A DNA stretch of 34,511 bases from Pseudomonadota bacterium (lineage in GTDB: Bacteria > Desulfobacterota > Desulfobacteria > Desulfobacterales > RPRI01): positions 1 through 34,511 of the forward strand of contig JAHITX010000103.1 of NCBI GenBank assembly GCA_018817425.1. The letters run 5' to 3'. Numbering within the stretch: position 1 is the stretch's first letter; every line of letters starts with the position of its first letter. Of the stretch, positions 2,635 through 3,231 are shown in pieces. Under the pieces are notes generated by a model, which was given only the letters and a program-made list of their open reading frames with translations, did not search any database and had not been told where the DNA came from. The position numbers were made by a program, and so were the translations under genes.

Positions 2635-2644
2635 AACAACCTCC

Positions 2645-2796
2645 GATTAGAGACCTTTGCAAAACGTCCCCTTTTGCCCGATTTCTGCGTCAGGCTCAAA
2701 TTTCTATCCTCGAAATACTCAATGTATTCCTGCGGTTGAAATCATCGCCTTCCTTGAACTCGAACAAAATTGAACATTTTTCAAAGGCCTCGATTA
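2645..2796. repeat. 5-bp direct repeats (GATTA) flanking the MITE-like element
   Basis: GATTA at 2645-2649 and GATTA at 2792-2796 directly abut the two ends of the element at 2650-2791, as expected for a target-site duplication. The right copy contains the TAA stop codon of nusB (2794-2796, minus strand); the left copy touches the ribosome binding site of the next gene. Confidence 0.65.
2650..2791. mobile_element. 142-bp MITE-like palindromic element
   Basis: The element begins GAGACCTTTGCAAAA and ends TTTTTCAAAGGCCTC; the ends match as inverted repeats at 13 of 15 positions, and the similarity continues at lower identity to about 32 bases. The centre is itself an inverted repeat (AATAC-TCAAT-GTATT), so the whole element can fold as one long imperfect hairpin. 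It has no convincing coding sequence and is flanked by a 5-bp direct repeat, GATTA. These are the marks of a non-autonomous miniature transposable element, mobilised in trans by a transposase not in this window. The ends recall IS5-type elements, but the family assignment is not secure. Confidence 0.72.
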
Positions 2797-3231
2797 TATT
2801 ATCAGTTTTTTTGGTTTAATTATTTCTGTTTCAACAGCATTTCTGACACTGTCAAGAATCCCATTTATAAAAGGTCCGGATTCATTAGTTCCATATTTTT
2901 TCCCTACGTCAATTGCTTCATTTATAGAAACCTTAAAGGGAATATCATTGCACCAAACAAGCTCAAATACTGCAATCCTCATGATATTTCTGTCAACACA
3001 GGACATACGGCTTATTTTCCAGTTGCTGGAAAACCGCTCTATTATAGTATCAATTTCCGATCCGGAGCTTATAACTCCTCTGACAAGCCTGTAAAAAAAA
3101 GGCAGGATATCTTCGGATGGATTAAAATTATCCCGGAAGTTCTCTAAAACCTCTTCAGAATTATCATGGCATTTATCCATGAAAAAAAGAACCTGCATTG
3201 CAAGTTCCCGTGACTTTCTGCGACTACCCAT
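2794..3231 (-). CDS. nusB: Transcription antitermination protein NusB
   Basis: A 145-residue, all-helical protein that binds boxA RNA together with ribosomal protein S10 (NusE) and supports antitermination on rRNA operons. The N-terminus SRRKSRELAMQVLFFMD and the later stretch DRNIMRIAVFEL...PFKVSINEAIDVGKKYG match the NusB family, and the length is usual. It starts four bases after ribH, the common ribH-nusB arrangement. Its TAA stop overlaps the right target duplication of the MITE, so the insertion left the protein intact by a single base. Its partner S10 is encoded at the other end of the window. Confidence 0.96.
   Translation of the reverse strand: MGSRRKSRELAMQVLFFMDKCHDNSEEVLENFRDNFNPSEDILPFFYRLVRGVISSGSEIDTIIERFSSNWKISRMSCVDRNIMRIAVFELVWCNDIPFKVSINEAIDVGKKYGTNESGPFINGILDSVRNAVETEIIKPKKLII

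Follow-up and report, generated by a model that had tools for sequence, protein, structure and literature searches.

MITE Insertion at the nusB–Hydrolase Junction

The window, as the whole stretch of 34,511 nucleotides analysed here is called, includes nusB (positions 2794 to 3231, minus strand; Pfam NusB, E 2.4e-34) and, downstream on the same strand, a gene for a metallo-beta-lactamase-fold hydrolase (2008 to 2634; Pfam Lactamase_B). Open reading frames and Pfam matches showed both genes to be whole. The hydrolase gene has a TTG start codon (at 2634), also found in most relatives, and is preceded by the Shine-Dalgarno sequence GGAGG (2640 to 2644, minus strand) in a layout that was the same in most relatives shown. 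The two genes are separated by a near-palindrome of 142 bp (2650 to 2791, plus strand) that runs GAGACCTTTGCAAAA...TTTTTCAAAGGCCTC and has a copy of GATTA on either side (2645 to 2649 and 2792 to 2796). Its 15-nt terminal inverted repeats, GAGACCTTTGCAAAA on the left (2650 to 2664, plus strand) and GAGGCCTTTGAAAAA on the right in the minus-strand reading (2777 to 2791), pair with each other, matching at 13 of 15 positions and differing at two. Between them lies a conserved hairpin core (2670 to 2772, plus strand) that scored 115.9 bits with covariance model R1, the window copy being one of the 25 sequences from which the model was built. A search of Rfam produced no match in the window; the region 2600 to 2840 gave four matches with E values of 2.2 to 9.8, all far under the gathering scores.

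The element at 2650 to 2791 is short and non-coding, it has terminal inverted repeats and a target duplication, which together set its boundaries, relatives exist without it, and copies are dispersed in the source genome and in related genomes. These properties confirmed that it is a MITE insertion, as the initial annotation had proposed, with the target duplicated between the nusB stop codon and the ribosome binding site of the next gene. When the element is removed together with one GATTA, what remains is TAA-TC-GGAGG-TTGTT-TTG, a gap of 12 nt identical to the one predicted. The duplicated target reads TAATC in the orientation of the operon (minus strand), and its TAA, complementary to the TTA at 2794 to 2796, is the nusB stop codon. 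Duplication of TAATC therefore kept both the nusB stop codon and the ribosome binding site and TTG start of the hydrolase gene, in agreement with the prediction that neither gene was broken. The description of the 12-nt junction as typical of this operon held only loosely; neighbouring gaps in the source operon range, according to the ORF table, from overlap up to about 90 nt.

A genome free of the element at nusB had been suggested as a check. A clear nusB orthologue was present in eight of nine same-genus genomes, and all eight junctions were free of the element. In the two closest relatives, G009 and G006 (84% and 83% NusB identity), the gaps are 17 nt and 21 nt and the GGAGG/TTG layout is the same. 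The gap is 25 nt in G003 and 3 nt, with an ATG start, in G004, and gaps of 34, 94 and 107 nt were found among G005, G001 and G002; the script did not locate the hydrolase start in G008. In G005, G001, G008 and G002 (L063, L064, L066 and L067) the junction is filled by a different foldable repeat of ~80-90 nt (AGGCTGT...CAGCCTA), and short pieces resembling it also occur elsewhere in L066 and L067.

Copies, End Classes and Target Duplications

Further copies were found, as had been anticipated, in the source genome and in its relatives. All 40 candidates scored in the source genome, out of 267 first-look candidates, matched the element, and a match was obtained in 33 of 59 genomes, source included, with at most 14 candidates scored per genome. 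Neither outcome named beforehand as contrary to the insertion, the lack of any second copy or an unrelated junction in element-free relatives, was encountered.

An imperfect-hairpin core of ~100 bp was common to at least five classes of ~142-bp MITEs that have different ends and target duplications of different length or sequence. A total of 165 copies were sorted into five end classes; an exact direct repeat of at least 3 bp was present at the boundary in 100 and absent in 65. Class A, to which the window copy belongs, has GAGACCTTTG ends and, among 63 copies examined, a 5-bp duplication in 30 of the 33 in which one was detectable. The duplication was 4 bp long in 35 of 39 class B copies (ends GAGCCA[GC]TTTC), CTAG in the three of class C (GAGGCTGTCCG), 6 bp in 17 of 18 of class D (GTGTCCATCC), 12 of them TAnnTA, and 6 bp in all seven of class E (GTG[CT]C[CT]GAACG). 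Duplication length was that of the class in 92 of the 100 copies; the best of 10000 shuffles reached 51. The commonest element length was 142 bp in classes A, B and D and 141 bp in class E, and there were longer variants of about 165 and 188 bp. Other end types beyond these five were each seen in single loci; the loci inspected for this included 29 of 30 from the covariance-model search, one from the source genome being left out.

Since MITEs with different ends carry the same core, the core hairpin itself could be the recognised unit, for example by a single-strand (HUH/Y1) transposase, with the ends being incidental. Y1 transposases were indeed present in all 12 core-bearing genomes examined. 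However, one core-reading enzyme would not make duplication length follow the end class. In addition, 24 Y1 loci (68.6 kb) contained two cores, both in one locus, which is about the expectation at ~200 copies per 5 Mb. A 37-bp end-to-end dimer of class A ends without core (G057, L208:5620-5656), flanked on both sides by ATGTT as judged by eye, also speaks against recognition of the core, in that it suggests that the core may be unneeded for movement, or may have been deleted later; the dimer may represent a minimal mobile unit or the result of core loss. Recognition of the core is considered very unlikely.

The end classes could instead represent one family in which the ends drifted, were never exchanged, and share a core by plain descent. 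Such a history would fit with the partial similarity of class A and class B ends, with an element length near 142 bp across classes, and with the finding that in 148 of 164 comparisons (102 of 116 with possible duplicate genomes removed) the nearest core in another genome had the same ends. Against it, GAGACCTTTG and GTGTCCATCC are unlike, the duplications differ (4, 5 and 6 bp, and CTAG), 12 of 42 genomes have more than one end class (possible duplicates removed), and the core tree, which is weakly supported and built on about 98 columns, requires at least 14 end-class changes across the five classes. Drift without exchange appears to us possible but doubtful. If ends were exchanged, this would probably not have occurred often within a genome: the median identity of cores of different classes was 0.786 in the same genome versus 0.784 in different genomes (0.786 versus 0.765 with possible duplicate genomes removed), and a difference this small does not support frequent swapping. 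As cores and ends mostly travel together, replacement of ends would be rare or old.

The abundance of the classes within the source genome was estimated from end counts. Class B ends were found 412 times within one mismatch, compared with 1 in the control, which translates into about 200 class B copies. Class A left ends with up to three mismatches numbered 44 versus 11 in the control, four of them exact and one with a single mismatch; the window copy is a member of the minor end class in its genome. In genome G160 (L295 to L314), class D ends were counted 219 and 234 times on the two strands (control, 1) and the top-scoring cores were near-identical; these counts suggest that this genome probably underwent a recent burst that produced over 200 class D copies. 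No transposase partner was seen in the G160 stretches sampled. Several copies were located at contig ends, and with about 200 class B copies in the source genome the family marks assembly breaks.

Under stricter filters, and with no more than 27 candidates per genome scored, the covariance model detected the core in 35 genomes, source included, of 148 sampled from the phylum. A scan of genomes with the core pattern matched at least 114 stretches; among the matches listed, nearly all belonged to Deltaproteobacteria, Desulfobacterota-type groups or unclassified Proteobacteria, and one to Sandaracinaceae. This last one (L173, a Sandaracinaceae MAG, Myxococcota contig) is a weak core match of 33 bits with GAGCTGTCCAGAAATGG-like ends, and it is uncertain and was given no weight because it was selected by the pattern itself. 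Outside the phylum, E. coli genomes, phages and plasmids gave no match, and the core pattern was not matched in viral contigs. A CCGTCATACCGGACTTGATCCGGTATCCAG-type repeat in L024 (G000:C53) resembles CGTC-tagged REPs.

Structure of the Core

The core alignment consisted of 25 sequences, the window copy together with 24 of 25 non-redundant cores (L048 was left out). The fold has 27 pairs, 16 of which show two-sided changes, a number not reached in any of 500 shuffles. Pairing was maintained in 96.3% of cells, none of the 500 shuffles reached the observed value in any of five measures, and versions in which the structure was slid along the alignment scored far below. This covariation is support for the structure rather than proof, since related sequences can exceed shuffles without any structure and a structure derived from an alignment tends to exceed its slid versions.

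Two internal loops of the core remain mismatched. Conservation of the central loop is partly by construction, as the search pattern fixed some of those columns. The outer loop, GCGTY opposite KCCTTG, lies outside the search pattern; most of the divergent cores that the model detected have it as well. Its first pair was readable in 106 of 133 cores, where it was C:T in 54, T:G in 46, C:G in none and otherwise in 6; when possible duplicates were removed the figures were 34, 28, 0 and 6 among 68 readable of 87. Five switches were counted on the weakly supported tree, and well-supported branches contained only one independent pair, so the apparent C:T/T:G coupling is suggestive only. A reading of the outer loop as a kink-turn, made by eye, was given up, as the outer helix is not adjacent.

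Short additions to the core were also noticed. One of ~23 nt (GCACGAAGTGAAGC...TAGCGCTA or close) precedes the inner loop on one of the two sides of the core in L078, L088, L145, L146, L149, L158, L164 and L294, and occurs in copies of both class A and class B from several genomes. L150, L159, L180 and L189 have other short hairpins inserted close to the loops of the core.

We infer that the core has persisted on account of a benefit that its structure brings to the element. A more speculative proposal, which we put forward tentatively and regard as possible rather than probable, is that the ~100-bp core, an imperfect hairpin whose two conserved internal loops are non-Watson-Crick, forms a DNA module maintained in its own right, which different transposase systems have repeatedly acquired between their ends. 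The module would be either a structure parasite that uses any available transposase or a booster of the transposition of any carrier.

Mobilising Enzyme

The left end of the window copy is identical at 15 of 15 positions to the end given in Table 2 of PMC4596501 for ISNme1, an element of the IS5 family, and the right end matches that end at 13 of 15. The most likely mobiliser, to judge from these ends, would therefore be an ISNme1-like DDE enzyme of the IS5 family. Some ends of BrickBuilt of Porphyromonas gingivalis begin GAGACCTTTGCA and are similar to those of class A (PMC4596501). As described there, BrickBuilt differs in having 23-nt tandem repeats inside, not this hairpin core, and its duplications vary in length (e.g., GAAA) while those of class A are mostly of 5 bp. 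The lack of a constant 5-bp duplication in BrickBuilt counts against an IS5-type account, as do the two differences between the ends of the window copy and the failure to find an autonomous element with class ends in the genomes, hits and stretches examined.

The search for a full transposase copy with the same ends, advised in the initial annotation, returned none in the parts searched. DDE_Tnp_1 produced 134 hits in eight genomes by per-genome counts, and the flanks of 30 loci screened for 13 end patterns revealed no partner. Matches to the IS5 N-terminal domain, DUF4096, were confined to two of 28 genomes and were all partial or broken. Nine distinct long end pairs were found in the fetched loci, mostly two MITEs around ordinary genes; Pfam analysis of the open reading frames of five of them detected no transposase, and the end pair in L081 was judged from its ORF list only. 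End pairs and unpaired ends were scanned in 19 stretches of the source genome and 20 of G160. Several of 15 unpaired ends inspected continue into core sequence and others into unrelated DNA, and the longest adjoining open reading frame, scanned for 12 of the 15, was in no case a transposase. When three end sequences, among them 31 bases of the left end, were compared with plasmids, matches were at chance level only, and a Vibrio plasmid record with two end matches had no transposase at the one place inspected. An IS1-type element in G057 (L206, Pfam DDE_Tnp_IS1) was rejected as a partner because it has its own 26-nt inverted repeat. An autonomous partner may be missing from draft assemblies.

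Effect on the Operon

The operon-strand RNA of the element is predicted to fold with -65 kcal/mol (z = -7.1), and none of 200 shuffles folded as well. A hairpin of this stability could be the basis for post-transcriptional control, in which RNase III cuts it or the hairpin stabilises the upstream message, shifting the expression of the hydrolase relative to nusB. RNase III cleavage of Correia elements within transcripts has been described (PMC10969869), and by analogy cutting of this hairpin is possible. One core pair that is U-G in 24 of 25 sequences, and would be A-C on the opposite strand, could hint at a strand-specific structure. This pair is absent from the 17-pair structure in which wobbles were counted, and there, over 133 cores, G-T occurred 27 times and A-C 28 times. 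Copies are also not biased with respect to co-directional neighbours, 55 having the same orientation and 51 the opposite. The equal counts and the lack of orientation bias argue against selection as a strand-specific RNA. Moreover, the predicted Shine-Dalgarno pairing is alike with and without the element, and the element-free state of the junction in all same-genus genomes with a nusB orthologue also weighs against a regulatory role there. The region has no terminator-like site and no promoter-like site on the operon strand; the single antisense promoter-like match is the number expected by chance. The regulatory effects suggested at the outset (attenuation of the hydrolase, cleavage by RNases or altered message stability) consequently received no computed support, and post-transcriptional control is judged improbable.

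Landing sites of the family place the nusB insertion in context. As assigned with a crude ORF caller, the open reading frames on either side are co-directional for 106 of 194 copies, convergent for 40 and divergent for 31; 11 copies are inside an open reading frame and 6 are without a flank. After removal of the element, the gap was at most 30 nt for 30 of the 177 copies with an open reading frame on each side (same ORF caller). Tight junctions like that of nusB are thus a recurrent landing place, and the nusB site is not exceptional. The insertion is most simply regarded as neutral for expression, with any effect likely to be small or none.

Altogether, the history of the locus can very probably be reconstructed as follows. 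A MITE would have been moved in trans by a transposase, IS5-like, that recognised its 15-nt inverted ends. The enzyme would have made a cut staggered by 5 bp in TAATC (operon strand), where the nusB stop codon immediately precedes the ribosome binding site of the hydrolase gene, and repair would have duplicated TAATC, keeping the nusB stop, the ribosome binding site and the TTG start, and leaving both genes intact. The operon messenger would now include a long hairpin with little or no consequence for expression.

Relation to Known Elements and Significance

The nusB element is confirmed as a MITE insertion of a known kind, for which Chunjie of Geobacter uraniireducens is a published parallel. 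Both are non-coding MITEs with conserved ends, target duplications and many intergenic copies; the comparison is by description, and Chunjie is longer (178-235 bp versus 142 bp). One operon copy of Chunjie disrupts a phosphate-uptake operon, according to a review, and is a precedent for insertion within an operon. Unlike the family described here, Chunjie has, in its review description, no common core under other ends.

Nested palindromes resembling these are found in Anabaena variabilis and Halothiobacillus neapolitanus, where REP dimers occur within longer palindromes (PMC3733652). REPs are 20-40 bp long with GTAG or CGTC tags (PMC3733652); the core, in contrast, is about 100 bp long, has two internal loops and is enclosed by transposon ends with duplications. 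CGTC-tagged REPs have been defined by a length of 20-40 bp, a stem of 8-9 bp starting with A-T pairs, an unpaired CGTC at one end and a CCA tail (PMC3733652). GCGTC or GCGTT is present in an internal loop of the core, but comparison by eye with that definition showed differences in size, stems and tail, and identification as a CGTC-tagged REP was rejected. TIMEs, which derive from Tn3, are likewise non-autonomous and have varied interiors (PMC4133298). In TIMEs a single end type (38 bp, Tn3 family) encloses different interiors (PMC4133298), the reverse of the pattern found here. Correia/NEMIS elements of Neisseria are also short MITEs present in transcripts (PMC10969869, PMC3733652).

One conserved hairpin core under several transposon end types is an unusual arrangement and a new variant, and no description of the hairpin core was found among the open-licence papers searched. 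Correia elements keep their ends and vary inside, the opposite of what is seen in this family, where the inside is kept and the ends vary. Taken alone, the insertion at nusB is an ordinary, well-preserved case of an operon that tolerates a MITE. In bacteria it is the ends that define a MITE, and the interior is usually regarded as dispensable. An interior conserved across at least five end classes makes the role of a MITE interior directly testable, and the wider family would gain importance should the core prove functional.
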